A stretch of 64,000 bases of DNA, from the NCBI RefSeq assembly GCF_048128805.1, contig NC_136008.1, forward strand, positions 16,843,572-16,907,571, in the 5' to 3' direction. The DNA is from Centroberyx gerrardi (Eukaryota; Chordata; Actinopteri; Beryciformes; Berycidae). A program made the translations under genes and the position numbers. The notes below the pieces were generated by a model that made no database searches, was not told where the DNA came from, and saw only the letters and a program-made list of their open reading frames with translations. Shown piece after piece: positions 15,788 through 46,330 of the stretch (positions are counted from its first letter, which is position 1; each line of letters starts with the position of its first letter).

Positions 15788-16631
15788 TTAAAAGAACAGG
15801 GCAAAAGAGACCATTGGTGCCACCAGGAGCAGGAGGCTAACACCAGTGCTGCTGGCGCTGTTGCACATGTCACCCTCACAGCAGCTAATTTGTGCTCCTA
15901 TGGCTCCTGCTGCCTGTGCAGATGTTGTACCTAAGCAAATGGTCTGGGAGGCGCAGCCCTTCAAGGTCGTCTTCTTACCTGCTGCATCCACTATGAGAAC
16001 GAAAACAATGTTAGTGACTGGGCTTAATGCTTTACCAATCTAGCTGCATCACTAAACATTCCTATCAAGGGCGTAGAATTGGGTAGGGACGGTAGGGACG
16101 TGTCCGTACCAATATCAAGCGACTCTGAAATGTCCCTAGCAATTATTTTGATTGACAATAAACGTTGTTTTGTCCGTCAGTGTCTAGTCAATGTTAACAG
16201 ATCGCGTTCTCTACTACGAGTCCCGCTGCATTGGTGTAGTGCATTGGTGTCCCGCGTCGGCATAGCAACGGACGCTGTAACGAAACGCAAGAAGAGCCAA
16301 AGCTCCGCCTACCGGCGAGCATGCGAGTGAAGACTCCATGCTATTTTATATTAGTAACAGTTGTGTTTAGCCATTAAAGTTAGTTTATTTAAGTACCGTG
16401 TCGCGTGCGTCTGTGACGAGTGACGACCGTAAGTAGCCTACATGTCACAAGTGAGATTGAACAGTGCTGATGTGTGCCACACTGGACAACACTGATGTAA
16501 AACAAATATGCCAACAGTTCATCTCTGTTAATGACAGGCGTAGGCATGTGTTTGGCTCCTTCAAATAGGAGCACGGCAGTGGACACTCAGCTGTTTGTAT
16601 GTAGGGTTTGGATATAGTTTACAATATCTTA

Positions 16632-16675
<44 letters not shown>

Positions 16676-19600
16676 TTAAATGTAAATACAGATCGTTGGT
16701 TTGAATAGGCAACAGTACTACAGTACCTGCCTTAAAACAAAATGTGCTCTTCAAAGTCCCATTCAGCTGGCAAATTTGAGTAAAGGATTCATTAATGTGC
16801 TACTCCCTGTGTCTGTGTGTCTGTTAATGAGTGTATTGGCTACCATAACTATCTAGATCAGTGGTTCTCGACGTGGGGTCCGGGGACCACCAGCGGTCCT
16901 TGAGGAGGTTCCAGGGGGTCCCCAGCAAATTGATGAATTGTTAAACTTCAGCATTATTTAATTTACAAATAGTTAACACAATTACAGAATGTAGAAGAAT
17001 TACTGTTTTGATCTTAGTTTCACTGTTATCTCTCTACCTACAATACAGACAGTCATGGGATTCTGGATCAAAATCATATCTAACAATAAAAGTATTCTCA
17101 GATTTGGGTCCGAGAGACAAAATCTCATCAAATGGGGGTCCATGGCTCTAATGTGGACTAAACTAGGGGTCCTCGATATGAAAAAGGTTGAGAATCACTG
17201 ATCTAGATGACATGAAATGGCGGTCAGAAGTCTATCATAAATGTAAAATGCCTCAGCTTCCAGTGGGGGTTACATCCCCTCCGGACCTCCCCCATTTGTG
17301 TCCCTACCAATGTCAAAATCAAACCTACGCCCTTGATTCCTATGAGCTGAAGCATAGAGTGAGTCATGCCATAGGCCTGTTACCTGTTGTTGTGATGCAG
17401 CGGTCCTCATCCCCCAAGCAGTTTAGAATGCTTTTGCATTCCCCCTTGTCATTGCAGCCATAGCACTTTTTACCATTGGGAGAAGGGACACGGGGCGCTG
17501 TAAGATAAAACTTATATTGTTCATAGTGCTACCGTACATTAGATGATAATATAAAACTTGAATGATCTCCATGGGGAAATTGTGTCATTGCAGCATCAAA
17601 GAATTAGCCTTGTCGAGCGATTCAGAGAAAAACTGGGGTGATGCTCTAGTCAACGGCTTGGCTTGTTCTAGCCATAGGTTCTAGCTAGCAACAATCGAGC
17701 CAATCAGTGCCTTTGTGGGCGGGACTAAAGTTTGAACCGTTTTTGTCAAAAACTACCTACATTCTTTGTGAAGTTAGTAAATAGCCTACGCCCAGCATCA
17801 ACTAAATAAAGTCAGAGTGGCCGGATCGGTCAGTCATTAATGATTGGTTCGGGGAAAATCCCCGCCCCGCTGCCCCCCATCACACACAGAAAACGGCTAA
17901 GGAGGCAGTCAGGCTCGACAACAAAATGCCCATTCAGTTTGAATATCAGGCTATCAAAGAATAGGATAGGCTATAGATAAAAATAGAACAAATAATGAGT
18001 ATTGAAGATAATGCTTCAAGTAATTACAATAAAAGAATATCTTGAGAATAATACAATAAATTAATTCATATTAGGCCTACAGTCTTAATTGACAAATTTA
18101 GAGATTAAAGGCATGGGCGGAGATTGCGGGGTGCGCATCTGATTATCAAAACACAGTAAATACAGAGAAGTTACCAGGGATAGTTTGGGAGTTGCAGAGG
18201 TCAGTGGAGCAACACTTGGTGCTTATTGAGGTCCTGGAGACTCCAAAGTTGGCCGAGCCGCTCATACACTGATCAGCCACAATACAAGACTTCATGTGGA
18301 CATTGAGGAGTTCTGTATCACCTGCAGAACAAACAGCAGCCTTTGTCAAATTATGTAGAATGCCAAAGAGTCTTACTTGCTGAAAGAAAAACCATGCACT
18401 ACTACATACCCAGGTATGAAACGACTCTTGCTGCTGCACATTGACCGAGTGAGGAACAATCTTTGGATGTGTCTGTGCAGCTTCCTGAGGGTCCAGGGAC
18501 GCATTCGTAACATGTCAGGGTGTAGGCTGAGAGAACAGATGAACAAGTCAGACAAGTTAAATATGAACTTTTTGCAATTTAAACATGTAGAGTGTAGTGG
18601 AAATTATACTATCCCACTATTCATACATTAAGCACTGTCTTATTTTACCTTGAAGTGCTCTCTGTACTTTGTACTTTTATGACAAACAATTTCTCTCCGT
18701 ACCTGCAGATGGTCACGTAGTGACCATCTGCACGTACATGTGCTATCACGTACATGTGCTATCACGTAGTGATAGCACATGTGCTATATAAGGTGTATGT
18801 ACTCTGTATACTTGGCTCTTTGCCTCACACTCTTGTGTGCTGTCATTGAACCTGCTTGCAAGCATTAAAGACACAGAAAGACAACTTCTACGATCTCAAG
18901 CCTCTTTATTAAGATACAGAAGTTTCCACCACATAGAGTTCTATAGCTCACTGAATTAAAGGATTTTTTTTTTTTTTACTAAAATGCACTAGGCTACCTT
19001 TACATCCAAAGCAGTTGAATGTTTATTCAACATGTTTCAACATTCTAAATTATCTTTCGGCAGAAAAAATAGGCTATATCAAAGGCACTCTTCCCATCCA
19101 AAAAGTAAAAATAGCCAATAAATAATAAAGGCTTTTTATTGTAAGGTACCAATAGGCTAGTTAAAGTGGAGTAATATACATTTTTAAAGGTTCAGAGTGT
19201 CACCAAAACAGGTAACCTGCCAAGGGACTGCAGATGAAAATGAGCTCTAAGCTAAATCTGGCACAATATATCAAATGGTAACATTTACATTACATGACGT
19301 CATTTAGCAGACGCTTTTGTCCAAAGCGACTTACAATAAGTGCATTTTGTCAACAGTAATGAAACCAACTGTGCATCAGTCTTCATCAGCTATGCCTTTT
19401 AATAGGAAAAGTAGCATTTGTTGAATCTGATATTTTTTTTTTTTTTTTTTTTGGAAGATGGGGAAGAAGATCGTTACATGATAGGTTAGTTCAAGAGGGG
19501 TCCAGGTAAATGTTTTTGGAGGAATAGATCTGCTTTTATGGCTAGCTGCTGCACATGAATTAGACCAGGGAGAACAAAACCCCAATATAAACATTAAAGC

Positions 19601-21028
19601 TGCAAGCAGCGATGATCGGGCCCTCGCACTTTGCGCACGTTGGGGTGTGCTGCAGCCGCGGCGGCGTTACTGGACACTGACTGACATCATTTCCTTTTGC
19701 CAGTAGGTGGCGCTATGACTATGATTTAAAATCGGCGTGTAGATGTCTTCAGGGCAGGACTGTCATCAATCGTGTGAAGTTTGGGGCAGATTTGACCATG
19801 TACGGTGGAGTTACAGAGCACTTCCTGTGTTGCCAGTAGGTGTCGCTATGACTATAACTGAATATTGGTATGTAGATGTCTTCAGGCCGGGGCACTTATC
19901 AAACATGTGAAGTTTGGGGCAGATTTGACCATGTACAGTCGAGTTACAAGCCACTTCCTCTGTTGCCAGTAGGTGGCGCTATGACTATGATTGAAAATTG
20001 GCTTGTAGATGTCTTCAGGCCGGGACTCTCATCAAACGTGTGAAGTTTGGGGCAGATTTGACCATGTACAGTTGAGTTACAAACCACTTCCTGTGTTGCC
20101 AGTAGGTGGCGCTATGACCATAAGTAAATATTGGCCTGTAGTTGTGTTCAGGCCGGGACTGGCATCAAACATGTGACATTTGGGGCAGATTTGACCACGT
20201 ACAGCCGAGTTACAAACCAGTTCCTGTTTTGCCAGTAGGTGGCGCTATGACTGTAACGGAATATTGGCCTGTAGATGTGCTCAGGCAGGGACACTTATCA
20301 AACATGTGAAGTTTGGGGCAGATGTGACCATGTACAGCCGAGTTACAAAGCACTTCCTGTGTTGCCAGTAGGTGGCGCTATGACCATAACTGAATATTGG
20401 CATGTCGATGTCTTCAGCCCGGGACTCTCATCAAATATGTGAAGTTTGGTGCAGATTTGACCATGTACAGTGGAGTTACAAACCACTTCCTGTGTTGCCA
20501 GTAGGTGGCGCTATGACTATAACTGAATATTGGCCTGTGGATGTGTTCAGGCCGGGACACTCATCAAACATGTGAAGTTTGGTGCAGATTTGACCACGGA
20601 CAGCCGAGTTACAAACCACTTCCTGTATAGCCAGTAGGTGGCGCTATGACCATAACTGAATATTGGCATTTAGATGTGCTCAGGCCGGGACACTTATCAA
20701 ACATGTGAAGTTTTGGGCAGATGTGACCATGTACACAAGGGCGGATATTTCATTTCACTGTTGGGGGGGACAATAAACAGAAAAATTTCTCAAGAGCAAT
20801 TCCTGAAGGGGACACCAAAGGTGCCTCTAAAAGTACTGTTGTATTAAATGTATATAGAGGTCCATTATAAAACATTTCCATAAGCACTTCATTCCTTTCT
20901 TATGAAGATTTTATCAAATTGCCTTTGATATTACTGGGGTCTTTCTACTTGGCGTTTCGGTGCACTGAAAAATGATCGGATGTCTGTTTTTCTTTTCTCT
21001 GCCATTTTAACTGACTGGCTGACAAATA

Positions 21029-21073
<45 letters not shown>

Positions 21074-23594
21074 CACACACACACACAGCATGCAGGTTAT
21101 TTACAGTAGTAGGTGAGATGCAACACCCATTAACTGAACTAAAGCTAATATATGCCTAATTAGATTTAGTTTTCCCGAAAAAGCAGATCTCTAATGTTTT
21201 GCTGTCAATGTGTAAAAGTCCAGAACGCTATGAAGCCTGCCAGAAACTTACTTAATATTTTAACATAGTGTTTGTTGTAATTATGTATTTTTTATGAATT
21301 AAGTCTTCATTTATTTCCAAAATTATAAACAAAATTACATAGTGACAGCCATTTTACATGCAGTAAGAAAAAAATAATATACTTAGAACCTAATTACGTA
21401 GGGTAAGTTAATCTTAAATATTATATTATAGAAATATTACTGTTACCATCTACCAAAGATAATTTTGGTATGAAAACCCGCATTTTCATTTAACCAAGTA
21501 TCCTGTATCATAAATACATGTCTGGCATTTGTAACAAACCAAACCGCTTGAAAATCGGTCGAAAATTCAGCGAGTTATGATGATTTTAATTGTGGACAGA
21601 CCTCCTGCCTCCATACACATACATGCATTAGGAGACGCGGCTCCGTACCAACACGCTGACGCACAAGATTCAACCGCGAGGTAATGGAGCCAACAAAATG
21701 TAGTCTGGTTACATTGTGAATGTGTTTTATTCTATTGAGTGGTAGAAGTAAAGAAAAATGTCTGACACATCCTTTGTTTTAAGTTAACCTTTGCAAAGTA
21801 GCTTCTTACTGGAGGTCTGCCACCACTGACACACTTCCAGAGATCCTCCACAGACACTCGTACCGAGGGCTGATGTGTGTGGGAGTTCGGGGAGTCAGGT
21901 AGGCAGTGGACCAAACCACTGTGAGGCGTATGAGGGGGGGACGCAATCTTTCGAAACTTAAAAACGCATTGTTTTGTGTCTATAATTAGCACAAGTGCTT
22001 TCAATGCATATTATTATATTATTTAAAATTATATAGTTATGTTTACAATGATATATTGAGGGGGACAACTCTCTGTTTTTCCCAGGAAGGGGGGGTCCGG
22101 ACCCCCCTGTCCCCCCCGTAATTTCCGCCCCTGCATGTACAGTGGAGTTACATACCACTTCCTGTTTCGTGGCGAAACATGGAAATGCGACGCCTCGCCA
22201 CGCCCACGCCGTTGGACGAAAACTCAAGCTTTTAACAACTTTTCATCGTCAAGGTCTGTTATATACGCTGAGCAAGTTTGAGGTGGATCCGATGAACCGT
22301 CTAGGAGGAGTTCGTTAAAGTATGACCCCTGTAAATGGGCAAAAATGCACAAAAATGCCACAATCAATTCAAAATGGCTGACTTCCTGTTGGGTTTAGGT
22401 CATGGGAACTATTGATGTTTTTTGTAGGTCTGGACATGATACATGTGCCTACCAAATTTGGTACATGTAGGTGAAACGTAGAGCGATGAGTATTTTTTTG
22501 AAATTTTGTAGGGGGCGCTATTGAGCCATTTTGCCACAGACATGTGCAAGACCCATAAAATATTAAATTTTTCACCACTTCTGAGGCATGTGCAAAGTTT
22601 AGTGAGTTTTCGAGCACCTTTAGCCCCTCAAAAATGCGATTCATTCGGCAGAAAAATAATAATTCCTTGCATTACAATAGGTCCTCGCACCGGTCGGTGC
22701 TCGGGCCCTAATAAAAGCAGAATTAAGCAGGTGGAGCTGGGGAGGAGGTGGGTGAACAAAAGCAGCAAGACTTATGACAGCAGACAACAGCAGCAGAGTG
22801 GCAGTCTGCACAGCCAGCTATACAATGAGTGAGTCTATATGTTATTTAAAAGGTTTGAAGTTATGTATTTTGATTGGTTTACTTATGAAGGCGCGCTGCT
22901 GAGTTCGTCCAGTCAGCTGAAGACAGTCAGCCTGAGTTTCCTGCCTGAACTTGCTGCTCACTATGGAGAGGTTCTTACTGAAGCTTGGGTGGCAGGGTCA
23001 TGTTTCGGCAGAAAACATAATAGGCAATCTTCCCAAAGGCCTTTATTATTTATTGGCTAATGCATTTACTGCTAATGCTGGTTTTGTCTTCAGTGTACAA
23101 GCTATTTAAGTAAAAAGCCTTTATTGTTTATTGGCCAATAGCCAATAAATAATAACGAAGAATGCCTTGGATATATTTTTTCTGTTGAAACATGACCCTG
23201 TCACCCAAGCTTCAATGAGCACCTCTCCATGAAGCCAAAGCAGCGTTCCTCTTTAGTATGTATTAGCCAATAAATAATAAAGACTTTTTACTTTTTGTAT
23301 GGGAAGAGTGCCTTGGATATGTCTTTTCTGCTCAAACATGACCCTGTCACCCAAACTGCAATGAGCACCTCTCCATACTACACTGAAGCCAAGGCAGAAT
23401 TCCTCTTTAGTAAACTGGTAAATTCTAAAATTCTACCTTTGAATCCATAGAAGTTGACTGTTTTCTAACTTGTATTCTAAGTCAAAACTCTTAATACTCA
23501 AAGGAAAACAGATAACAAGAGTTAAAAAAAAAAAAAAAAAAAACTTGCCTTTGGGGAGAAGCACACTCCCAAGGATCAGTATAAGCAGATGCAT
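15788..23594 (-). CDS. Two-domain Ly6/uPAR-like GPI-anchored protein, copy A (208 aa)
   Basis: A small cysteine-rich surface protein of the Ly6/uPAR (LU) superfamily, probably GPI-anchored outside the cell; ligand unknown. Exons (minus): 23549-23594 signal peptide ([15 protein letters not shown]), 18410-18526 and 18175-18321 (LU domain 1: CYEC at 21-24, CC at 91-92, CN at 97-98), 17384-17497 and 15788-15990 (LU domain 2: CYGC at 115-118, CC at 178-179, CN at 184-185). The tail [18 protein letters not shown] is a typical GPI-attachment signal, omega site probably about 185-189. All junctions are phase 1 and the 627-nt CDS is open. Intron 1 uses a GC donor (AAAG/GCAAGT). The two-domain build resembles fish proteins annotated as uPAR-like; human PLAUR has three domains. 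The large introns are swollen by transposons. Confidence 0.85.
16066..17335. mobile_element. Non-autonomous hAT element (1270 bp) in uPAR-like A intron 4
   Basis: Perfect 8-bp target-site duplication ATTCCTAT (16058-16065, 17336-17343). Ends are inverted: CAAGGGCGTAG at both termini. Copy B has the uninterrupted site at about 41,606-41,616, so it inserted after the duplication or was lost cleanly from B. The interior has an (ATT)n run (about 16,632-16,675) and a nested MITE; no transposase is recognised. Confidence 0.85.
16859..17200. mobile_element. hAT MITE nested in the larger hAT element (342 bp)
   Basis: 8-bp duplication ATCTAGAT on both sides (16851-16858, 17201-17208). Ends are CAGTGGTTCTC and, inverted, CAGTGATTCTC. 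The same family is present at 30,571-30,914. Confidence 0.85.
17605..17952. mobile_element. 348-bp insertion with 10-bp direct repeats, class unknown
   Basis: ATCAAAGAAT occurs at 17595-17604 and 17953-17962; copy B has a single ATCAAAGAAT at the same place (about 41,875). The insert contains CCAATCAGTG and GGGCGGGAC, promoter-like boxes. Ends are weakly inverted (TAGCCT, AGGCTA). The target length would suit a Mutator-like element, but this is not proven. Confidence 0.55.
18593..18933 (+). mobile_element. Solo LTR (341 bp), retroelement fossil
   Basis: Begins TGTAGTGGAAA, ends TTTCCACCACA (short inverted TG...CA ends) and is flanked by a perfect 5-bp duplication TAGAG (18588-18592, 18934-18938). 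It has a TATATAAGG box about two thirds of the way along and a downstream ATTAAAG. No internal region remains, so it is the product of LTR-LTR recombination. It is absent from copy B, so probably younger than the duplication. The family could not be settled. Confidence 0.8.
19281..19530. repeat. Dispersed fish repeat with TTAGCAGACGCTTTTGTCC core
   Basis: Core TTTAGCAGACGCTTTTGTCC and AAAGCGACTTACAATAAG, then poly-T and GAAGAAGATCGTTAC. A second copy lies at about 45,160-45,390 in different flanks, so it is an interspersed family (SINE or MITE; class uncertain). Confidence 0.6.
19594..22710. repeat. GCTGCAAGCAGC-type fish repeat with a 133-bp tandem array
   Basis: Starts GCTGCAAGCAGCGATGATCG and ends GGTGCTCGGGCCCTA. 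From 19,699 to about 20,735 a unit containing GCCAGTAGGTGGCGCTATGAC recurs every 133 bp (19699, 19832, 19965, 20098, 20231, 20364, 20497, 20630) with no length change. The last unit is split by a hAT insertion (20,736-22,133). It lies in intron 1 of uPAR-like A and is missing from copy B. Confidence 0.75.
20736..22133 (-). mobile_element. Non-autonomous hAT element (1398 bp), copy 1
   Basis: 8-bp duplication CATGTACA (20728-20735, 22134-22141) within the 133-bp array. Ends CAAGGGCGGATATTTC and, inverted, CAGGGGCGGAAATTAC. It contains a (CA)n run near 21,030-21,085. On the minus strand a short frame reads [15 protein letters not shown], like the N-terminus of hAT transposases, so it is a deletion derivative of a coding element. 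Confidence 0.85.
22990..23430. repeat. Short tandem/dispersed repeats in uPAR-like A intron 1
   Basis: Two or three related stretches repeat CATGACCCTGTCACCCAA, GAGCACCTCTCCAT and CCAATAAATAATAA. A related piece sits at about 19,081-19,140. No coding content. Confidence 0.5.
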
Positions 23595-26500
23595 TTCAGG
23601 ATGGCGGGTGGAGTCCAAGTGGCTCAAAGTTTGGGCAGTTACAGCTTTAAGTAGTTCTGCTAAGTAGGAGTGGTCCCAGGATGACATCCATCATCCTTGA
23701 TAAACACAAACATATTTGACTGTTAAATCTAATTTACTTTGAGATAGGTTTCATATACAGTCATTTCCCCATAAACACTGTCTAGTGCCCCCCCCCCTCC
23801 CCCCGCCGATGACAGCACAAGTAAACCTTAGGTTTCATTTCTTGTCTTCTTAAATGTGAGTTACCCTGATCAAGCCAATTCTAAGAAGGATCACAAGAGA
23901 AGGATTAGGTTTCATTTATCATTCTCTAACGTGAGAAACTGTAAGAAAGCCCCAGGCGTTACTGTGGGGACAATATTTCCTGTTGCCATATACATCTTTC
24001 AACATGTATTTCGAGAATAAGGCGTGTTCAATAACGGTAAAAGTCAGGTACTGACATGACAGGGGCAACTGTGAAACACTGGTTGATACATTTTAGCATT
24101 TTACACAAAAAAAATACCCCTTTACAATGTGATTTTCTTTTTTTTGCACTGCTCATGTTCAGGGTCAAAATTAAGTAAACACCAACACAAATTGTCACTG
24201 CAGTAAAGGATTCTGGTGGTGAAGTTTTCTTTCAGGGCTCTTTCTAAAAAGTTTGAAGGTTGTGCTGGGGTGCCACTGATCAAAAACACTGATCACATAC
24301 AGATTTCACGTTAGTAACTTTATCCCATGATGCATATTTGATGCGAGTACAGCATAGACCATAAAATGGCAATGCCCCTACCAACAAGGCGAGAGCAGTC
24401 AATAGTTTGAAAAGCATGATAGTGATGTTAGATAATATAGCAAGGTCTTCTCAATAACCAAATATGAACACAAGTACAGAACACATGAGGAAGTACAGAA
24501 CGCATGAGAAACTTGTTAAACAAATTGCTCATGTTGCCCTAGGGTAGCGATAGGCAACTTCGTGCCATGGAGCGCCAAGAGTCTACATGATTTCATTCCA
24601 ACCGAACACGACCGATTGGCACACCTTCAACCACGGATGAGGAAGTCATGTAGTCTGTAGAAAAGAGAAGAGCGGGGACGTCCCAGACCCTAAACATGAC
24701 GCAATGGCCACAATCATGTTTTCAAATAAATGACTTTTCTTCAATCAAATGATTAATTTAAATGCCATACAATCTATAGAAGAAAAGTGGAGTTAGGTCT
24801 TACAGGAAGACCGACAAATTTTTTATAACCTGCTTTCGTAAGAGCATCTTCCCCTTCATTCTCCTGCAGAGGCAGCAGGAACATGTTGACTTCAGTGTCC
24901 AATTGTTTTAGGGTCAGGGTGTATCATTTGCATACCAAACTGTATGGATTTAAGTTTTTTATCTTTTTGTTGGTTTGTTTTTGTTTGTTTATTGTCTTGT
25001 TTTTGGTTACGAGTACTTCCTAGTGTTTTCCATCCATCAACACCCCGCCCCCACCCCCGCCCCCGCTTAGGTTTCATTTCTTGTTCTGTTATTTTTAAAT
25101 GTGAAAGTTACCCTGATCAAGCCAATTCTAAGAAGAATTCTCATAGAATTGTATTTTATCGGTAAGGTACTTTTATAAGCCCACTTGGGTTTCAAACCTC
25201 TCCGGCACATGGCCTTTTTTTTGTTTGTTTTGTATTGTCTTTATTGGTTTTCTTTCATGGTGCGAATAAATAAAACCTAAACCCAAAACCTAAACCTAAA
25301 CCCTCAAAATGTATTTATGTATGAGTAGTAGATTCTCTCTGTGTGAGTTTTTAACCTTTGTATTTGAGATGAGAATGGGCCATCAATTTGTCCACCACCA
25401 TATGCATTTTCTTGAGATTCCTAGGGCAGAACTCGTACCGCCTGGCTTTATTCTGCAGGAACACTAGATGGAGGAGGAATAAAAAAGAAAGGAGCTTTCA
25501 TTTTCAGTATATTAAGTGTGTTGGTGTATGTGTGTGTGTGTGTTTCTGCATAGAAAGGTCACCTATATGGGGATAGTACTCAGCTCCATCATCACTGCTT
25601 GAAGAGCCAGTGCTGTCATGGCTTGCTGAGGGAGTGGAGGGCTTCAGCATCTCAGCAGTCTGAAGGAACCTACCCAGAAACATGCCACAAAATTTTCTGC
25701 ACATGGTGTGAGGCTTCAAATGGGCCACGGCCACAAAGTGCGGGACAAGTGATATGCCCCGCTCTATTTCTATGGGCAAAACAAAAAATAATTTTCTGTG
25801 GTTAATTTTTCTGTGTTCTATGGTGTAAATAATTGTCGTCACCTATTCACAGTTATCAGAGACCTCCATTATCATTAAAATGTTTATTTTCTGGAAGTCA
25901 CAAAATGCAAGCTAGCAAACTTCCGTGCAAGAGAGGAGTCATGCTAGCATTTTGAGACTTCAAGAAAAAACATTTTAATGATCATGCTGTTGTTTGACAA
26001 CCGTGAAAAGGTAACGTCAAATTATTTACACCATATACATTTCACATAAATTATTAGAACACAGAAAAGGCAACCACAGAAAATGTCGATTTACTGTTTT
26101 GCTCATAGGAATTGAATAGGATTTCGCTCTTGTACCACACTTTGCAGGTGTGGCATTTTGCCGTGTCATCGCAATTCTAATCTATACAAATAGACAACCT
26201 TATAAAATGAAAACAATTGTATAATGTAAAAAATTCTCAGCTGCATTTGTAGGACTCGGCGCTAGATGCTGGCTATTTAGAGTGTTCTTATTTACAGTTA
26301 ATCAGCTACATTTTCACAATTCTTTACAGTTTACATACAGTATGTTCAGTTCCAACTCATCACATTGTCTGGCCAACATTTATCTGATTTGAACTTTTGA
26401 ATCCATATGAGATGGAGAGCAAGAATGAAAACAAATCCAGTTATTTTTATACTATTATGAACAGGTGTTCATAACATGAGGAACAGTGTACTGTCCTGTG

Positions 26501-26929
26501 TGTGTTGGCATATGCATCACATACACTACACTTCATTCAGTCACAGCATAGCTACTAATTTTACATTTCAAAATGACATACTGTTTAAAGACTTTTTGTT
26601 GAATGAATTTAAAGATTTTGGTCATTGTTTAGTATGATGTATGCTGTTCATGCCTGGGCGATGTAATTCTCAAATAGGCCATATCTGTCTATAGCCAAAT
26701 CTTTTTCTTTACAACAAATATACAGTAATATGTGAATTCACACTACTTTTCCATAATTATTATGCAAATTCCCAAACTTTCCAAAACCTGTAAAATATCA
26801 CATTTGGTGTCCATACATTTCCAGACTCAATAGGCCAGTGTAGCTTACATACTTTTTAACAGCAAACTGTTGGAATGCATTTATACTGTAGCTACAATTA
26901 AAACCAAAACCTTATCTGGCAAGATCAAA

Positions 26930-28060
26930 ACAGGATGGAGAAATTGGGCAGGCATTCAACTGTTCAAAAGAGAGTAGTCAAGCCACAACCTCTATGACAA
27001 GTTCCAATCTGGTTTTCCATTTCTAACACAGAACTTAAACTTGTTGGTTGATTCTGATGTCAGAAAGCTATCTGTACTTGTTTTGATGGATCTTAGTGCA
27101 GCATTTGATACAGCAGACCATAGCATAGGTTCTCAGCTGGTTTAAATCTTATCTGGAAGGCCAAAGCTTTATTGTGTCCCTTGGTGACTTTAACTCGGAC
27201 AAAGTAAATATATCATGTGGGGCCCCACAGGGGTAAATTTTAGGGCCCTTTCTATTTAATCTCTACATGCTCCCCCTCAACCATATCATCAGGAATCACA
27301 ATATTTCTTATCACAGTTATGCAGATGATACACAGCTATATATTTCATTGTCCCTGATCTGAGTCCTCTTAATTCCCTGGTCAACTGTTTGATTCATATA
27401 GATCCCAAACTTTCTTGTTCTTGTTCTGGGACCACAGGCTCACAGAGAGAAAGTCTTTCCTCTATTAGAGTCTCTCTCATTAATTAGTGGCAGCAAAGTC
27501 ACATGTCAGCAGCATCACAAAGTCTGCTTTCTATCATTTGAGTCAGAGGTTTCTTATCGCAAGCTGACACTGAAAAACTTGTATATGCTTTCATAACCAG
27601 CAGGTTAGACTATTCCAATGCACTTCTTTGTGGCCTTCCCAAGAAAACTATTGGAAGACTGCAGCTCATCCAAAATGCAGCTACTCCTGTTTTAACAAGA
27701 ACTTGGAAATCTGACCACATTATTCCAGTCCTTAAAAGCCTTCATTGATTACCTGTTAGCTTCAGAATAGATTTTAAGATTCTACTTATGGTGTACAAGA
27801 CCATAAATGGTCTGGCAATGCAGTAATATCAGATATGCTTTCTAGTTATGAGACAGACCTCTAAGGTCATCGGGCACCGGTCTTCTCCACACCCCCAAGA
27901 CTAAATCTAAATCCAGTGAATTAGCTTTCAACTTTTATGCTCCTAAGAAATGGAACAGTCTGCCTGCTGACATTAGGGCGTCCTCGACATTAACTTTGTT
28001 TAAAAGCAAAATCAAAATATATATCTGCTACCACTAAGCTGGCTTCAGTGATTGTGCTCA
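26930..28060 (+). mobile_element. L2/CR1-type LINE remnant (reverse transcriptase, 3' part), copy A
   Basis: Plus-strand frames show [21 protein letters not shown]-like and [10 protein letters not shown] reverse-transcriptase motifs, then [20 protein letters not shown]-like C-terminal sequence. Several stops and shifts make it dead. It is almost identical to 50,060-51,190. Confidence 0.8.
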
Positions 28061-28089
28061 ACTACCACAGACAAGTAGTATACAGCCTG

Positions 28090-29239: not shown

Positions 29240-29415
29240 CCTTGAGTGTCATATTTATAAGATACTATCTTATAATTATGACTTAGCATTTCATAATTAT
29301 GAGAAGCTTTCTCATAATTTTGAGATACTAAGTCATAATTATGAGATAGTATCTCATAAATATGACTTAGCATCTCATAATTATGAGATACAAAGTCATA
29401 CTATTGAGAAAAAAA
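29240..29415. repeat. TCATAATTATGA palindromic low-complexity repeat
   Basis: Alternating TCTCATAATTATGA and TAAGTCATAATTATGAGAT units in both orientations. It lies in the block of copy A (about 28,580-29,480) that has no counterpart in copy B. Confidence 0.6.
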
Positions 29416-31289: not shown

Positions 31290-31291
31290 CC

Positions 31292-31323
<32 letters not shown>

Positions 31324-36185: not shown

Positions 36186-36190
36186 AAGAT

Positions 36191-37476
36191 AGGGAAGCAA
36201 CAAGCCAGCACAGTCGAGCTGAATGTGAAGGGTTAGAGCACCAGTCTAATATGCACAAGATTCACCTGTCCTGCATATGCTCTGCATTGCTGTAGTATAT
36301 TGAGTTGCATTTTCCTTAATACATTTGTATGAGCCTCCAATGTTCCTACAACCCACTTTGACCAGGATCGCTGATGTTCCAGTTGAGAGGCGCTCTCCCG
36401 GTAGCTGGTCCTGTTGCCCTGGTCATTATTATCCTAGCTACAGTGGTTGGAGTGGCCATATGGAGGAAAAGGTAGAATATGTGAAATTAGAATAGTCATA
36501 TTTAAATATTTAAAAAGTGTCACTATTGGTAAATAATACTAAAGCTGTTGATATTTTATCCTGTAAAAGTCAACATTTATTTGTTCAAGAAATATTCACT
36601 TTTTTGCATTTTTGTATGCCATGTTTCAAACAGGGGGCGCTCTGACAACTCTCTCAGACCACCGCCTCGACCAGAGAAAAGGTATGAGTTTTAATGCCTG
36701 AATGTGCATAATATGTGGACTACATACTGTATGTTACAGGTTAACATTCATGCTAATGAATAGCTTCATCTGAAGACAAATCATGCAGAACCACAAGTCC
36801 TTTATTTCTACCAGAGGAATCAGTTCAATACACTTTTTAAATTCTGTCGAATATATGAACGTAAATGTGATAATAATAATTTGTGATTCCTTTCATAGGA
36901 AATCACTATGGGATAGATTATCCAGGTAGACTTGATTAATAAATCGTTTAAAACCATTTTTTTATATTGGTCCCATATTGTACCAATTAAAAACACTTTT
37001 TTCAATTATAATCTCTAAACAGCCTATTTACCTTGTGTTGCTTAAAATCATTTCACAATGAAAAATATTACCTATCCAAATTTCCAGAAGATACCCTGAG
37101 GACAGACAGAGACCTCCAAGGCCTGAAAAAGGGTTTGTCAAATCATTTGTCTGGCAAAAACTGATATTGTGTGTCCTGATTTCTTCCTCTTAGAAGCAAC
37201 ACCAAAACTGTAAACTGTGACACTCAGATCTCCAAACAACGCTTTCCATCCCCCAAGGAGTGAGTATCAATGACACACCTATTTCTCACTCTTTTCAAAG
37301 CCATAACACTACCTTTCATATTCACATTTTCTTTTGTATTTGCAAATCACAAGTTCATTATTTTCTCACTTTTCTATTCTTGTTTGAGTAATCGGAGACT
37401 TCCTCACTCGGTCAGGCCTGGGGCTGGTTGCACAGACGTGAGTAGTAATGCCCAGATCAGATGTAAAGATTATTAG
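36191..37476 (+). pseudogene. Siglec-like gene, 5'-truncated tail copy
   Basis: Duplicate of the 3' end of the Siglec-like gene. It starts about 40 nt before the end of the last C2 exon and keeps the TM exon (36366-36471, identical protein), 36634-36681, 36899-36925 (one Arg to Lys), 37088-37132, 37194-37259 and the final exon 37389-37476. The four tail exons between 37,132 and 37,194 are deleted. There is no signal peptide or Ig domain, so it is not a receptor gene. Confidence 0.9.
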
Positions 37477-37679
37477 ACTGTTATTGTCCCCAGACTTCAT
37501 ATGAATTACACTGGATCCATCTGAGATCATCCAGCATCACTGCTATTTAAGCTGTCTCACTTTATCTAACATATAACCTAGGACTGATACAGCTATGCAG
37601 TGCTCTTGAAATGCACATCTGTTTCTTTAGTTATGTAAATTACAAAAAGCATAATGTTAAAGGCTAATTGCCTACAGAA

Positions 37680-38065
37680 CAATTTGAGATTGTAGATCAG
37701 AAGAGGAACGCTGCATGGGCTTCAAATGTGTGGTGCTCATTGGACATATGTGAAGAAAAGAGAAGAGAAAATCCAAGGCACTCTCCTGAAGTTAAAAAGC
37801 CTTTATTGACCTTGGCTATTTCATGTTAAAACGCACCAACGCGTTGCGGCCCCACCAGGCCTTCTTCAGGGTGCAGAGAACAATGTTGTGTGGATTTTCT
37901 CTTCCCTTTTCTTCACAATTTGAGATTGTAATTGACTGTAATTTCCCTGAATTTTGTTGTAGGATTATAACGTATATGCAAACTTTTGAGTCCTTCAAGA
38001 CATCCTGGACACATCAAGCACTTCCAGGCCCATGATGCTGTGTTATTGTTTTGCATTCACACAGA

Positions 38066-38106
<41 letters not shown>

Positions 38107-38135
38107 TGAGTGTGTGTGTGTGTGTATGTGTGTAA
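37680..38135. repeat. Copy B of the 13.5-13.95 kb repeat and microsatellite
   Basis: Nearly identical to 13,500-13,950 except for CT and GT run length. No gene is seen from 37,477 to 41,332 apart from probable uPAR-like B 3' UTR. Confidence 0.6.
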
Positions 38136-38630
38136 ACACGGATGTACCTGTGACTTTACAGAGCTTTTCTGGAAGACTGAAAAGTTTCTAGGTGATAGAC
38201 ATTCATTGACATTAATGGCCCATCACTTAATGAATCTGTCTGTCAGTCTTTCTGTAGTCCCTTTCATTTACAAAGCTTCTTATTTTATGAACCGCTTTCA
38301 TTTAACAGAATTTCAAAATGTTCATTACTAAGCCATTTATGTGCGTTGCCTTATAAATTCAACCTGTTAAACAAGTATTGCTGTTTTTATCTCATTTTTC
38401 CTCAGTTGACTGGGTTATGTGTAACATACACAACATAACTGTAAAATGATATACTTGCTATAAACCCTTTATAGAGAGGTAGTTGTCATGCAGTTTGGTC
38501 ACTCTATCAGTTCTGTAGAAGAAACCTTTGGAAAACCTTCACACAATTACTGGGTTGTTGGGTTTACTTTAAAAAAAAACAACAAATAAACAAACTGAAG
38601 GATTAATTAATAGTTACATTTTGTATATTT

Positions 38631-39846
38631 GATTGGGGTGTCACGATTTCGATTCTAAATCGAAAATCGATCAAAATGAGCGTTCGATTTCGACCTTCGA
38701 AATCACAATCAGGTAAGCGATTCTCCCAGTGTTTTTTTCTCTCCACCCCTGCCTACTCGCACGAGTCTGAAGAAAAAAAACAAAAACATTTCAATGAGGA
38801 CAGCATAGCTGCTAGATAGCGCCCGTTCTGTTTCACTATAGCGCCCAAGAGCGCCCGTCATTTTTATAAATCATTTAAAATGTACCAAAAACTGAAAATC
38901 AAGTTATCAGCTTTGTTTTATATATACTTCAAGTTGTCATCGATGAACCGGAACCGGAAAATACTGTATATCTGGTGACACTGAGACGTTTGCTTTTCCC
39001 CGGGTTTAATCGTCTTTCCACCGGTAAAAATGGCTTCGCCGGCTCAGCGTCACGCTTTTAAAACCTTCTGGAAGCTGTCAGATTGTGCTGTGAGACAGAA
39101 CCTGACCCGCCGTATGTAGTGGAAAGTTACGAAGACATTGTGAGTTGAAGTCTTTTGATCGAAATCGCTTGTTTATCGCTCGATTATACAAGACACAAGA
39201 TCACCTTCACTAAACAGCGAGACCTACCTGCTCTCGCCGCCGGAGACGGACGCTGTTTTCCGGGAGGCAGTGCGCCGAAGAGTCGGTAGGAGGACTGGCC
39301 GGGTTGCAGCGACTTTTATCCATATAAGTTTGGCGACTTTTTCCATATGTTTGGCGACTATTATTGTCTGATCTTATTACTGTGTGGGCTGAAGTGCTGG
39401 AGGTTTTGTATGTATTTTGAAAGCTTATCGTTAGCCAAGATAGGAAGGATCTGTTTTGTTGTCATACTGTGAATGTTGACACTGAAGTAAGGAGACGCCC
39501 TGAATCGCCTTGCCATGTATTTGGTACCAAATTAAAGGGAAAGTTGTGTTTTTTTAAATGGAAAAACTTTGAAAAAAATTTGACCATATGGCCTTAGTGT
39601 GGTACATTCCAAAAAAAAATATGGCAGTTATATCACACATGATACCATCTCTTTAAAGAAGAATTTGAAAATGTAAATGACAGTTGTCAGGGCATAAAAC
39701 CAATGATCTGTTGATCTTTACAAATCAAGACTCAATAGTCTAACAATGGCATAGCCGTCAGTGCTGAAAAAAAAATGTTTAAATCAAAAATCAAATCGAA
39801 TCGTGACCTTAAAATCGAAAGTCAAATCGAATCGTGACACCCCTAA
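38631..39846. mobile_element. DNA transposon insertion (1216 bp) with GGGGTGTCACGATT ends
   Basis: Copy A has the empty site GTATATTTACAT (about 14,324); here TATTT is repeated at 38626-38630 and 39847-39851. The ends are inverted (GGGGTGTCACGATT, AATCGTGACACCCC), followed inside by TCGATT-rich palindromes. No transposase frame. Probably hAT-like; the 5-bp repeat is shorter than the hAT norm. Confidence 0.75.
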
Positions 39847-40649
39847 TATTTACATATTAAACAATCTTTTTATATTTTCTGTGACTCACTCAAAATCTAT
39901 GCCATATTGCTATATACAAACTAACATTTGTTGCCAAAGTTGTTTATTACTTAAGCTGTCATTTCATTCATAATAGTCAGTTCTTTTTATTGAAAGACAT
40001 TAAGTCTAACCCATTAAGCTTTACATACTTGTGATTAGCATAGTTTTGCTCCCATTCACTGCATACAATTTAAAATGAAAGAAATTCTGACAGTTCTGTC
40101 ATGATGGCTAACAGGAAAATTGGGATAGGTATGAGCTTCCCACACATGGCAAAGGCACTGTAATAACAAAATAGAACTCAGTATAGACATAGTTCAGCTC
40201 AAATCAGGGACTTGAGTCAGCAGATAAAGCCTGTGGGTCTGATTCAGACCTGGACTTCCTCGACTTTTGATTCACAAGGTCTGTGTTGCACTCTAGCCCT
40301 AGGTGTAACTATGTGTGGGCAGTATAAGCTAATTTGTCTGGTGGTGTGCTTCCTTCTGAACTAGCCACCTTTGAAGTGAACATTTATTTTGCCACTGTCT
40401 GCTCATGAATCTTATTTGCATAAATTCATTGTACACACCCTTTTGCCAACCTTACACCAAATTTATAGCTGATACAACTGCCCTCTATGCCTGCATGTCA
40501 TGAAAGTTAGAAGTGAATTTCGTATTTTGAATGTCTGGAATGAGACTGAGACATCATGAGACTTAGAAACCCCAAAGAAAACACAAAAATAAAATGTATC
40601 AGTTATCAAATTATTCATTTTTTACGGAAGAAGATTAAGGTCACATGTG

Positions 40650-40820
40650 AGAAATTTATTTGAGTTCTGAGATTAATCTCAGAATTCGGAGAAAAAAGTC
40701 AGAATGCTCACTTTAAATCAGAATTCTGACTTTATTCTCAGAATTCTGACCTTAATCTCAGAATGTTGCAATTCTGACTTTAAACTCAGAATTCTCACTT
40801 TGAATTCTGACTTTTGCTGT
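40650..40820. repeat. TCAGAATTCTGA-type repeat
   Basis: Tandem, partly palindromic copies of CAGAATTCTGACTTTA / TCTGAGATTAATCTCAGA. Present in copy B only. Confidence 0.6.
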
Positions 40821-41332
40821 TTAATTGAGCTTTATAGGTAATATTCAAAACAATATAGGTGGGAGCAGGTAAAAAATTGTTTGAGGCAAAGGGCAGAAAT
40901 GCTATGTTTATTTATCATATTTTGCTGGCTATACTGTCTGCTACCCTACTTCCTGTTTCTCATCAAAATTCAGCTGCTTGTATGGAAATTATTTTAACTT
41001 AGCAGTACATTGAACATAGTATGTGTCTATACCAATCAAAGCTTTTGTGCATAAAAGCTGAAGAGAGTGTGGGCGGGGTGTGTGGGTGGCCAGGTGGGAT
41101 GGTTAGTGGATCTCATCCCAAAAAGTGTGTTGAATATTCCACAAATTGGTGCGGCATACACAGAAAAGGAGTGGAGAGAGACCTTGTGTAAAAATGGAAC
41201 ACAGCAGACACTGGTTAACAGGCAGGGTTAGGGATTGGATATCAAGAGGGAGGATAAGGAGTGGTGAGGAGCATGAGGCCATACAGAGGTGAGGAGGGAA
41301 ACTGAATGGTGAGGTTATTGTGTCTCCGTCAG

Positions 41333-44291
41333 TTAAAAGAACAGGGCAAAAGAGACCATTGGTGCCACCAGGAGCAGGAGGCTAACACCGGTGCTGCTGG
41401 CGCTGTTGCACATGTCACCCTCACAGCAGCTAATTTCTTTTCCTATGGCTCCTGCTGCCTGTGCAGGTGTTATACCCGAGCACATGGTCTGGGAGGCGCA
41501 GCCCTTCAAGGTTGTCTTCTTACCTTCTACATCCACTATGAGAACGAAAACAATGTTAGTGACTGAGCTTAATGCTTTACCATGTCTAGCTGCATCACTA
41601 AACATTCCTATGAGCTGAGGAATGTGAAATATTAGAGTGAGTCATCTGATGCCATAGGCCTGTTACCTGTTGTTGTGATGCAGCGGTCCTCATCCCCCAA
41701 GCAGCTTAGAATGCTTTTGCATTCCCCCTTGTCATTGCAGCCATGGCACTTTTTACCATTGGGAGAAGGGACACGGGTCACTGTAAGATAAAACTTACAT
41801 TGTTCATAGTGCTACCATACATTAGATAAGATAAAACTTGAAAGATCTCCATGGGGAAATTGGGTGATTTCAGCATCAAAGAATAGGATATTAACTAATA
41901 TGCTATATGCAAATAATGAGTATTGAAGATAATGCATGAAGTAATTACAACAAAAGAATATTTTGATAATAATACAACAAATAAGTTAAAATAACAGTGT
42001 CTTAATTGACAGATTTACAGATTAAAGGCATGGGCGGAGATTGCGGAGTGGCCAGGAGGGCACTCTGCAATACAAACAGTGGCTGAGAGGTGACATAACA
42101 ACCCTTGAATAGTTTATTTGTACCTCTGCACAAATTAAACTATATCTATGTGTTATTGTATGAGGCTATCCAATTTGACAGGCATCTCAGGGATCTTGTC
42201 TATAAAGCTCTGGTGGTTGAGTCAGACAGTAGGCCTATGCAAGCGAAGCGATAGATAAATCTGTTATCTAAGAGTGTTAGGCAGACTAGACTGCTTTTGT
42301 TTGTCTGGGACTCAATGAGAGTGTCTCACATTAAGACCAATATCTTTTTTTTCTGCCAGAGGCTTCTGTGATTTAGGCAAAATAGCGTAAAAGTCAAACT
42401 CACCTATGATTAGAGGATGTTTGTTTTTAACCAATTAAACATTTTCTGTAAATATTAAAATTAATCTGAATTGTATCTTTTAGTCGATGAAACCAATTTT
42501 GTTGGTGTTACATGCTAAATTCTGTTAAACACTGATGATTTTGCTGAAAATTTGAAACATGCCAACACTAACATTTATGGGTGTCAACCACACAATTTTT
42601 CAAATTTTGGTGAGTTTTTGAGTCATAGAACCAAATGCATTCCATTTTCAACGAGTACAGGAGTCGGTCCAAAGAAGCATCTGATTATCAAAACACAGTA
42701 AATACAGGGAAGTTACCAGGGATAGTTTGGGAGTTGCAGAGGTCAGTGGAGCAACACTTGGTGCTTATTGAGGTCCTGGAGACTCCAAAGTTGGCCGAGC
42801 CGCTCATACACTGATCAGCCACAATACAAGACTTCATGTGGACATTGAGGAGTTCTGTATCACCTGCAGAACAAACAGCAGCCTTTGTCAAATTATGTAG
42901 AATGCCAAAGAGTCTTACTTGCTGAAAGAAAAACCATGCACTACTACATACCCAGGTATGAAACGACTCTTGCTGCTGCACATTGACCGAGTGAGGAACA
43001 ATCTTTGGATGTGTCTGTGCAGCTTCCTGAGAGTCCAGGGACGCATTCGTAACATGTCAGGGTGTAGGCTGAGAGAACAGATGAACAAGTCAGACAAGTT
43101 AAATATGAACTTTTTGCAATTTAAACATGTGTAGCGGGGTAGAGCGGGGCACTGTTATTGTATTTCATTTTTTAGTTATTTTTGTTTCAGTGTGTGTTGG
43201 TATCAGGGGCGGAAATTACGGGGGGGACAGGGGGGTCCGGACCCCCCCTTCCTGGGACTAACAGAGAGTTGTCCCCCTCAATATATCATTGTAAACATAA
43301 CTATATAATTTTAAATAATATAATAATATGCATTGAAAGCACTTGTGCTAATTATAGACGCAAAACAATGCGTTTTTAAGTTTCGAAAGATTGCGTCCCC
43401 CCTCATACGCCTCACAGTGGTTTGGTCCACTGCCTACCTGACTCCCCGAACTCCCACACACACACACATCAGCCCTCGGTACGAGTGTCTGTGGAGGATC
43501 TCTGGAAGTGTGTCAGTGGTGGCAGACCTCCAGTAAGAAGCTACTTTGCAAAGGTTAACTTAAAACAAAGGATGTGTCAGACATTTTTCTTTACTTCTAC
43601 CACTCAGTAGAATAAAACACATTCACAATGTAACCAGACTACATTTTGTTGGCTCCATTACCTCGGGTTGAATCTTGTGCGTCAGCGTGGTGGTACGGAG
43701 CCGCGTCTCCTAATGCATGTATGTGTATGGAGGCAGGAGGTCTGTCCACTATTAAAATCATCATAACTCGCTGAATTTTCGACCGATTTTCAAGCGGTTT
43801 GGTTTGTTACAAATGCCAGACATGTATTTATGATACAGGATACTTGGTTAAATTAAAATGCGGGTTTTCATACCAAAATACTTTATCTTTTGTAGATGGT
43901 GACAGTAATATTTCTATAATATAATATTTAAGATTAACTCACCCTATGTAATTAGGTTCTAAGTATATTTTTTTTTTCTTACTGCATGTAAAATGGCTGC
44001 CACTATGTTATTTTGTTCATAATTTTGGAAATAAATGAAGACTTAATTAATAAAAAAGACATAATTACAACAAACATTATGTTAAAATATAAGTAAGTTT
44101 CTGGCAGGCTTCATAGCGTTCTGGACTTTTACACACTGACAGCAAAACATTAGAGATCTGCTTTTTCGGGAAAACTAAATCTAATTAGGCATATATTAGC
44201 TTTAGTTCAGTTAATGGGTGTTGCATCTCACCTACTACTGTAAATAACCTGCATGCTGTGTGTGTGTGTGTGGGGGGGGGGTGTGTGTGTG

Positions 44292-44322
<31 letters not shown>

Positions 44323-46330
44323 CTATTTGTCAGCCAGTCAGTTAAAATGGCAGAGAAAAGAAAAACAGACATCCGATCATTTTTCAGTGCACCGAAACGC
44401 CAAGTAGAAAGACCCCAGTAATATCAAAGGCAATTTGATAAAATCTTCATAAGAAAGGAATGAAGTGCTTATGGAAATGTTTCATAATGGACCTCTATAT
44501 ACATTTAATACAACAGTACTTTTAGAGGCACCTTTGGTGTCCCCTTCAGGAATTGCTCTTGAGAAATTTTTCTGTTTATTGTCCCCCCCCAACAGTGAAA
44601 TGAAATATCCGCCCTTGGTTGGTATAATTTGTTGATACTGGTCAGTGCATTTCTGATCGGCTGTCTCTCTGTTCTCTCCTATGTTTCCGGGGAGTGACGT
44701 GATGCTGCAGTAATCTTTTAGAAGGGACTCCTTCTGTGTGATATCTTGTGCTACTGGGGGAAATCAAATGTGTGGCATGGTCTATAGTATTCTGGCTGGG
44801 GTTATTGTGGACCGTTTGGTCACGTGGGTGTATAGCCGCTACGAAATTGCGGGTGACTGTCCCGGCTCGGCCCACTCTGAAACTGATTTTATTTTGCGTG
44901 CACGCAATGTTCTTGTGTATTGGGGCTCCTGGTTTTTGTTTTTCATTTGGGAAAACCAAACGCTGAGCTATTGATGTTTCTATCTGTTTATCCTAATTGC
45001 TATACTCTATTGGGGTCGATGGGTGTATTGTTTGCTGTGGAATTGTAGTGAAATTTTAACTTAATCCGGCATGGTTTTATAGCACATGGAGTGGGTTTAG
45101 TATGGTAATGTTTCTCCAGTGAAATCTAAACTTTTCCCCAGGATACATATTACATTAGGCTACATTACATTACATTACATGACGTCATTTAGCAGACGCT
45201 TTTGTCCAAAGCGACTTACAATAAATGCATTTTGTCAACCGTAGCGAAACCAACTGTATAGTCTTCATCAGCTAAGCCCTAAGAATAAGTAGCATTTGTA
45301 GAATCAGTTTTTCTTAGTTTTTTTTTTTTTTTTTATTTAGTCGTAGAAGGGGAAGAAGATCGTTACAGGTTAGTTCAAGTGGGGTCCAGATGTAACAAAC
45401 GTAACAAAACGAAAAGGTGGGGCAGAGAAATTGAGGGATAAAAAAAATAAAGGCCCATGAAGCTGAGGCATCAAAATGCGCAATAATTACTGACCTTTTC
45501 AGTAGTGCAAGGCAAGCACCAGCAGCATTTCCACTGCCGGTGATGAACGGCATTAAGAGGCTCAGTGCCTCTACACCTTCCCCCTGTCCTGAAGGGAGGA
45601 CAGTGGGCTCAGTGCCTCTCTCTACATACCCACCCCTTTACTCCATCTTTTAATTGTTTATTGTTTATTGTTATTAGACAACGTTATAGTTTATTTTCTT
45701 GTCCCCTGCTATACACCAACGCGACCAAACGGTCCACAATAACCCCAGCCCAGAACAGCTACTAGACCATGCCACAAAAGTTAAAGCCTCGCTCGCTCTG
45801 GACAGTCCGGAGCCCTTCTAAAAGATTCACTGCAGCATCACGTCACTCCCCGATCAGAAATGCACTGACCATTATTAACAAATTATAGCCTACCAACATA
45901 TTACGTAAAAATATAGGCTAGAAAACAAAAATAACAAAGTGAAATACAATAACAGTGCCTCGCTGTATACATGCAAACTAGTAGCCTATCTGTTCTGTAG
46001 CTAATTGAATTACAGGCTTTTTTTTGACTAAAATAGCCCACACAGGCTACCTTTGAATCCAAAGACATTGATTGTTTATTCTACGCGTTTCAGCATTCTA
46101 AAATATCTTCCTGAGTCATGACAGAGTTCTTGAAGGGTTTCTGACAATACAGAGAACCTGTTTTGGTGACACTCTGAACCTTTAAGAATGTACATTCCAC
46201 TTTAACTAGCCTACTGGTATCTAACTATATACTTAATACTCAAGGGAAAACATAACTAGCGTTCAATAAAAAAAAAAAACTTGCCTTTGGGGAGAAGCAC
46301 ACTCCCAAGGATCAGTATAAGCAGATGCAT
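41333..46330 (-). CDS. Two-domain Ly6/uPAR-like GPI-anchored protein, copy B (208 aa)
   Basis: Tandem paralogue of the gene at 15,788-23,594. Exons (minus): 46285-46330, 42952-43068, 42717-42863, 41667-41780, 41333-41535; identical lengths and phases, all open, same GC donor after exon 1. Domain 1 differs from copy A by one residue (Pro to Leu in the CYECVPG loop). Domain 2 differs at about 12 positions, including AP to VT, Tyr to His, Asn to Ser, AA to VE, ICLGTTS to MCSGITP and AQ to KE, while all cysteines and the GPI tail are unchanged. It looks functional. Intron 1 holds a 2.9-kb inverted-arm insertion with a nested hAT element. Confidence 0.85.
43131..45985. mobile_element. Insertion with long inverted arms in uPAR-like B intron 1
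   Basis: Left arm (43,131-43,203 plus 44,618 to about 44,850) and right arm (about 45,715-45,985) are inverted relatives: the left has GCACTGTTATTGTATTTC, the right GAAATACAATAACAGTGC. Copy A instead joins the flanks directly around its solo LTR. The middle holds a TTAGCAGACGC repeat (about 45,160-45,390). Fold-back or composite element, family unknown. Confidence 0.6.
43204..44617 (+). mobile_element. Non-autonomous hAT element (1414 bp), copy 2
   Basis: Same element as 20,736-22,133 in the opposite orientation, with its own perfect 8-bp duplication GTTGGTAT (43196-43203, 44618-44625). An ATG at 44347 opens a 24-codon frame containing [15 protein letters not shown], a hAT transposase N-terminus relic. 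A long (GT)n/(G)n tract lies near 44,258-44,322. Confidence 0.85.

Follow-up and report, generated by a model that had tools for sequence, protein, structure and literature searches.

A 64,000-nucleotide stretch of Centroberyx gerrardi DNA (hereafter, the window), located on contig C12 of a 779-Mb genome, carries two tandem genes, copies A and B, whose two-domain products are nearly identical in the first LU domain and divergent in the second. The near-identity of one half and the divergence of the other most likely reflect the copying of DNA stretches between the two copies, namely, interlocus gene conversion (we put the probability at about 0.83). The aligned copies form an abrupt mosaic of two divergence classes in coding and non-coding DNA alike, where the introns and silent sites of domain 1 are as frozen as its protein sequence and the replacements in the changed part of domain 2 have accumulated at the rate of divergent non-coding DNA. 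All coordinates are window positions unless marked C9.

The gene pair and its differences

Both genes lie on the minus strand, copy A at 15788-23594 and copy B at 41333-46330, with open reading frames, and each consists of five exons of 46, 117, 147, 114, and 203 bp that together encode 208 amino acids; corresponding exons of A and B are 22.7 to 25.5 kb apart. The exons are as follows.

23549..23594, minus strand: copy A exon 1, with what looks by eye like a signal peptide, followed by a GC donor
18410..18526, minus strand: copy A exon 2, first half of LU domain 1
18175..18321, minus strand: copy A exon 3, second half of LU domain 1
17384..17497, minus strand: copy A exon 4, first half of LU domain 2
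15788..15990, minus strand: copy A exon 5, second half of LU domain 2, GPI-type tail by eye, stop codon
46285..46330, minus strand: copy B exon 1
42952..43068, minus strand: copy B exon 2
42717..42863, minus strand: copy B exon 3
41667..41780, minus strand: copy B exon 4
41333..41535, minus strand: copy B exon 5

In both copies, intron 1 is GC-AG and the other three introns are GT-AG; all are in phase 1, the cumulative exon lengths of 46, 163, 310, and 424 each leaving a remainder of 1, and this layout of a signal exon followed by two exons per domain fits membership in the LU family. Each protein combines a signal-like N-terminus with two LU domains, which are recognized by Pfam PF00021 (UPAR_LY6) as two stretches per copy (59.8 and 58.1 bits against a curated cut-off of 24.8) and both of which end in CC...CN. 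As the initial annotation of this DNA had claimed, the cysteines are conserved: there are 20, 10 per domain, at the same positions in both copies. By eye, each protein has a hydrophobic C-terminal tail of the glycosylphosphatidylinositol (GPI) type; the products are probably GPI-anchored.

Exons 1 to 5 differ at 0, 1, 0, 4, and 12 nucleotides, respectively. The only difference in exon 2 is the replacement P28L, and the 16 differences in exons 4 and 5 change 14 codons and 12 amino acids through 13 replacement and 3 silent steps, in full agreement with the counts made earlier by eye; codon 104 spans the junction of exons 3 and 4, and its change falls in exon 4. With the loops named after the LU scheme in the excerpted text of PMC6600238, two of the 12 replacements are in the linker before domain 2, two in loop 1, two at the tip of loop 2, one before C160, and five between C160 and C178 (loop 3). 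None hits a cysteine; the chance of sparing the seven cysteines of that stretch is 26%.

A mosaic of two divergence classes

The two genes are embedded in a duplicated unit.

11440..30237: duplicated unit, copy A
36191..52954: duplicated unit, copy B

Aligned as a colinear chain of 20 blocks and 9440 columns, the units show identity that shifts abruptly both between and inside blocks. A two-state hidden Markov model describes the alignment far better than a single rate (twice the log-likelihood difference, 2dlnL, of 360), separating a low-divergence class (15 tracts, 7607 columns, 0.6%) from a high-divergence class (14 tracts, 1833 columns, 11.9%). The longest identical run in the whole unit covers 1766 columns, where permutation yields at most 470, and in the gene region, runs of 323 and 272 columns exceed the maximum of 221 (10,000 permutations in each case). 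Thus, as interlocus gene conversion predicts, the paralogs share identical tracts longer than expected by chance. The classes partition the gene as follows.

18135..18588: homogenized tract, copy A side, taking in exons 2 and 3, all of intron 2, and the edges of introns 1 and 3; 2 of 454 columns differ
42677..43130: the same domain 1 tract, copy B side
15507..15886 (B side 41052-41431): homogenized tract running from the 3' half of exon 5 into the 3' flank; 3 of 380 columns
15887..16038 (B side 41432-41584): apparently unconverted island covering an intron edge and the 5' half of exon 5, from the tip of loop 2 to loop 3; 13 of 152 columns
17487..18113 (B side 41770-42030): high-divergence stretch made up of the alignable part of intron 3 and 11 bp at the start of exon 4; 25 of 236 columns
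23537..24472 (B side 46273-47473): homogenized tract, exon 1 and upstream DNA; 5 of 581 aligned columns

Exon 4 belongs largely to the low class (mean posterior 0.82), so that what had been described as a changed domain 2 comes down mainly to the 5' half of exon 5 plus the opening codons of exon 4. The other half of exon 5 is frozen along with the adjoining 3' flank (2/323). Coding DNA is not enriched in the high tracts (115 of 627 coding columns against 1833 of 9440 overall), low-state differences occur in both kinds of DNA (4/512 coding, 40/7095 non-coding), and high-divergence islands are found in non-coding DNA of the unit as well (21/110 at 12175-12284 and 12/127 at 24473-24614).

The domain 1 tract bears on the choice between conversion and protein constraint. 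Its non-coding part (intron 2 and the ends of introns 1 and 3) differs at a single position in 190, compared with 65 of 638 in the divergent non-coding DNA around exons 4 and 5 (P 4.5e-7), and no silent change is seen in about 74 silent sites (whole coding sequence minus the values for exons 4 and 5), an outcome with a chance of 0.003 at an intron rate of 7.6% and of 0.0003 at 10.2%. Domain 1 is therefore frozen at the level of DNA and not of protein alone, and the homogenization of introns and silent sites points to interlocus gene conversion rather than to protein constraint. The contrast drawn in the initial annotation between a frozen domain 1 and a changing domain 2 is thus better explained by conversion, and its companion claim, that neighboring intron DNA diverges at a similar rate to domain 2, survives in part: it holds for intron 3 (24/245) and the 3' flank at 15278-15557 (37/270), more weakly for the edges of intron 4 (4/123), and fails for intron 2 (0/88) and the start of intron 1 (0/62), both frozen like domain 1. 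Purifying selection holding the protein constant would account for the single amino-acid difference in exons 1-3, but not for introns and silent sites that are equally frozen, and in the related genes on C9 discussed below, domain 1 is no less variable than domain 2. We consider this explanation scarcely tenable and, on the intron and silent-site identity, rejected it as the cause of the identity of domain 1.

We propose a tandem duplication of a ~17-19 kb unit that contained a single gene for a two-LU-domain, probably GPI-anchored protein. The duplication would be old, given that the unconverted DNA reached about 12% difference and the copies gained many differing insertions. Subsequently, repeated interlocus gene conversion (non-allelic homologous repair) would have overwritten most of the alignable DNA, bringing it to about 0.6% divergence. 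Three converted tracts would fall in the gene itself, the first spanning exons 2 and 3 together with intron sequence, the second running from exon 1 into the upstream DNA, and the third joining the last part of exon 5 to the 3' flank. Conversion would have passed over the start of exon 4 and the 5' half of exon 5, from the tip of loop 2 to loop 3, where the older divergence would persist, the island changing its amino acids at about the neutral rate with frame and cysteines intact. The mosaic itself, the frozen state of the introns, and the near-neutral rates are observed; that conversion produced them, in which direction and when, and that both copies function, is what we infer from these patterns.

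Two other histories could yield such a mosaic. In one, the duplication is recent, as the 0.6% class covering most of the aligned columns might suggest, and a diverged allele or a third copy supplied the 12% patches. DNA searches of the genome with 15507-16038 and with the domain 1 tract, which like all our genome-wide protein and DNA searches score the best candidates only and so give lower bounds, returned two matches each, copies A and B, and thus no third copy in the assembly for either stretch; furthermore, the large copy-specific unaligned stretches suggest age. We regard a recent duplication as improbable. In the other, two haplotypes or mispatched repeats were assembled in tandem, an error that can create identity mosaics; there is no N in the window or in the surrounding 264 kb, and a divergence of 12% with differing insertions is, in our judgment, much for alleles, so that an artifact of this kind appears very improbable.

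Several observations nevertheless weigh against the conversion scenario. About half of the copy A unit has no alignment to the copy B unit, the alignment itself is split into 20 blocks, and the state boundaries are derived from the very mismatches that they explain. The genome searches found no close third sequence by which conversion could be confirmed from conflicting trees or polarized. The three gene tracts coincide with exons and the untranslated region, which might hint at selection, too. When the mosaic is shifted circularly, the combination of at most 1 difference in domain 1 with at least 16 in domain 2 arises in only 1.8% of shifts, although a rate difference between the domains as large as that observed arises in 20%, so that the contrast between domains is less clearly beyond chance than the identical runs are. 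Finally, a local assembly error is possible.

The longest identical run, at 25846-27871 (B side within 48617-51564), contains what by eye resembles a reverse transcriptase piece of a long interspersed nuclear element (LINE), a label that is unproven, two pieces giving no Pfam match at 0.01. In intron 1 of copy A, there is a 133-bp tandem array of 7.8 copies (19697-20735), with none reported in copy B at the score threshold. A 1.4-kb element, 97% alike, occurs in intron 1 of both copies in opposite orientations (20736-22133 and 44617-43204) and, hence, probably represents two separate insertions; intron 1 of each copy also contains one UnaL2 LINE 3' element (19294-19347 and 45179-45232).

Domain 2 and the related cluster on C9

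In the island (codons 142-175), replacements amount to 9 in 76.3 sites (11.8%) and silent changes to 2 in 25.7 (7.8%); the high-state non-coding DNA differs at 212 of 1718 positions (12.3%), matching the replacement rate; the replacements in the island are at the neutral rate. The patch of codons 104-175 is indistinguishable from three non-coding references (P 0.46, 1.0, and 0.13). Over exons 4 and 5 as a whole, the replacement rate (13/242 sites) is not below that of introns 3 and 4 (P 0.32) or of the intron 4 edges (P 0.44), and it is below that of the divergent non-coding DNA (65/638, P 0.024), a low value that we attribute to the converted 3' half of exon 5.

Pairwise maximum likelihood, which with two sequences has low power, gives an omega (dN/dS) of 1.84 for exons 4 and 5 (P 0.33, here and below for the test against omega 1), 2.8 for codons 104-175 (P 0.14), 2.19 for mature domain 2 (P 0.28), and 1.98 for the whole coding sequence (P 0.26), and the likelihood profiles reject an omega of 0.5 or less in all four tests. 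The earlier suggestion that the changed part of domain 2 is under little constraint is borne out, both by its rate, equal to that of high-divergence non-coding DNA, and by these profiles, and no pairwise omega clearly below 1 was found. The companion suggestion, positive selection on the loops of domain 2, is unproven, none of these estimates departing significantly from 1; such selection may have acted.

A rival view is that loops 2 and 3 of domain 2 changed under positive selection for new ligand contacts, with or without conversion elsewhere. It would fit the point estimates of omega above 1 and the location of seven of the 12 replacements in loop 3 and at the tip of loop 2, with all cysteines spared. 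It would also fit the lack of indels in exons 4 and 5, compared with 12 events in 638 non-coding columns (the chance for the patch is 0.017, or 0.063 when scaled by substitutions), such that the frame may be selected while residues change, and the positive-selection signal in the related C9 cluster. Yet none of the four likelihood tests departs from omega 1, and under random mutation the probability of 13 or more replacements out of 16 is 26-45%, and that of 13 or more out of 15 in the patch 13-26%, depending on transition bias. The replacement rate is the neutral rate of the high tracts, the cysteines would be avoided by chance about once in four cases, and two of the replacements, Y116H and N129S, are at positions that by eye vary little in the C9 genes. 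We therefore consider positive selection unlikely. The lack of a premature stop codon in exons 4 and 5 tells us little (53-73% by chance).

Selection could instead have acted against conversion, removing tracts wherever functional differences in loop 3 would vanish and leaving a peak of divergence. The island, with its 13 differences in 152 columns, is indeed flanked by stretches with 3/380 and 4/178 aligned columns (up to 17486), and the 5' half of exon 5 (11/110) tends to exceed the intron 4 edges (4/123, P 0.058), but it is not raised over introns 3 and 4 (28/368, P 0.43), and given the similar non-coding islands in the unit, no selection is needed. This alternative, too, appears improbable. 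Only slightly less so is a reading in which the copies share a scaffold and present two ligand faces, where conversion would unify the promoter-side DNA, domain 1, and the anchor part, while selection would keep loop 3 distinct; if so, the C9 cluster would be an expanded version with positively selected sites in both domains. A diverging ligand-binding face, as originally suggested, is possible; the C9 cluster lends it plausibility but is no proof for the C12 pair.

A protein search of 264 kb including the window recovered only copies A and B. The genome-wide family search with PF00021 gave no match here and none in 14 control genomes, and it carries no weight because the domain is split over exons. 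Genome-wide protein searches (two at E up to 10) detected distant exons on C15, C3, C8, C9, C2, C19, C18, C7, and C4, of which only the C9 places reached E 0.001; for exon 3 of domain 1, the best-scoring other place is on C9 (46% identity), with weaker places at up to 51%. Polarizing the replacements with the C9, C3, C15, and C2 exons was given up, these being too distant.

On C9, at about 21274826-21344528 (21.27-21.35 Mb), six related two-LU copies were read (loci L043, L044, L042, L030, L045, and L046). One of them, K4, has Pfam support for both domains; for K3, exon 1 lies outside the stretch read and exon 2 is cut. Two look damaged in exon 5, K2 with a stop soon after the last cysteine motif and K6 with another tail, and the loops have undergone length changes. 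In our own implementation of the site models, M2a is strongly preferred over M1a for the six copies (2dlnL 47.5 over 175 codons, with K3 missing in exon 2). The preference persists without gap columns (155 codons, 37.6), without these and their two neighbors (129 codons, 36.2, with omega about 6 at 30% of sites), on a star tree (58.6), and with the four copies that have an unbroken exon 5 (27.8), against a maximum of 7.1 in 60 null simulations without recombination. By exon, each on its own tree, the signal is concentrated in exon 3 (P 3e-6) and exon 5 (P 0.0013) compared with exon 2 (P 0.16, 5 copies) and exon 4 (P 0.5); by domain, it appears in domain 1 (P 7e-5, 5 copies) and domain 2 (P 0.003). 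Conversion between C9 copies within an exon could inflate this signal. These results suggest that positive selection can act on LU domains in this genome, on the first as well as the second, a conclusion that does not extend to the C12 pair. The C9 genes are as variable in domain 1 as in domain 2 and, hence, domain 1 is not intrinsically frozen in such genes.

One C9 pair, K3 and K4, is roughly a mirror image of the C12 pair, with the domain 1 exon diverged and exon 5 of domain 2 nearly frozen: silent and replacement changes number 0 and 3 in exon 5, 0 and 2 in the part of exon 2 seen, 1 and 9 in exon 4, and 6.5 and 21.5, along with a five-codon indel, in exon 3. Because the non-coding DNA beside exon 5 is less frozen (intron 4, 8/104; 3' flank, 28/705; compare intron 2, 22/134, and intron 3, 39/491 and 5/77), this pattern is merely suggestive of conversion.

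In an exon-only comparison, conversion mimics the conservation of one domain and the selection of the other, and it is intron 2 and the silent sites that tell these readings apart. The half-and-half pattern alone demonstrates neither protection of domain 1 nor selected change in domain 2. With six copies and a statistically strong signal, the C9 cluster offers better ground for studying selection on the LU domains of fish.

Neighboring genes and known systems

Immunoglobulin (Ig)-like exons adjoin the LU genes at 6959-11482 on the plus strand and again from about 36191 on. Compared with Pfam, one of four frames from the Ig region exceeds the cut-off (V-set, 8881-9351), two give weaker Ig matches below it (one CD22-like), and one gives none; from 11440 onward, the last Ig frame lies inside the duplicated unit. 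Farther along the plus strand, 59452-61977 is a single reading frame of 841 amino acids with zinc-finger-like motifs by eye.

The pair shares the LU fold with uPAR (PLAUR), and among solved structures, copy A matches uPAR 3laq best (residues 73-188 aligned with 151-274, E 7.8e-10); for domain 2 of copy B alone, SLURP1 (6zze) comes first (E 0.00086) and uPAR next (E 0.008). However, uPAR has three LU domains, as an orthologue should, and the pair has two, and domain 1 of the pair has 10 cysteines compared with eight in domain 1 of mammalian uPAR. For this pair, "uPAR-like" is a label only. The excerpts of PMC6337849 assign the three-LU uPAR lineage to lungfish and tetrapods and two-LU genes to the teleosts studied there, with a single three-LU exception in Lates calcarifer. 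A carp gene labeled uPAR-like is described, in a part of PMC10974277, as strongly induced in leukocytes under koi herpesvirus infection, which says nothing direct about the present pair. Another comparison is the zebrafish cluster of seven two-LU GPI-anchored genes on chromosome 21, which, in the relevant part of PMC6600238, has two LU domains with 10 cysteines each, tandem copies, and a phase-1 exon set like those found here, whereas the present pair is limited to two copies within the 264 kb read.

As a mosaic, the pair resembles human segmental duplications shaped by interlocus gene conversion, for which the extracts of PMC3790853 report over-long identical tracts between paralogs, a GENECONV-type signal; here, by contrast, there are two copies only, too few for a quartet or tree test, and the tracts were judged by permutation rather than by GENECONV. 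The primate L/M (red/green) opsin genes (PMC3924837, PMC3213168) are likewise tandem duplicates, about 24 kb apart, that are mostly homogenized, with one exon divergent; that case and the theory presented with it indicate that selection under conversion can leave a peak of divergence. The divergent opsin exon encodes residues of known function and is subject to selection against conversion, whereas the island of exon 5 behaves like the non-coding islands of its own unit. In shape, then, it is an opsin-type divergence peak, but one for which, in view of those comparable non-coding islands, selection is not needed.

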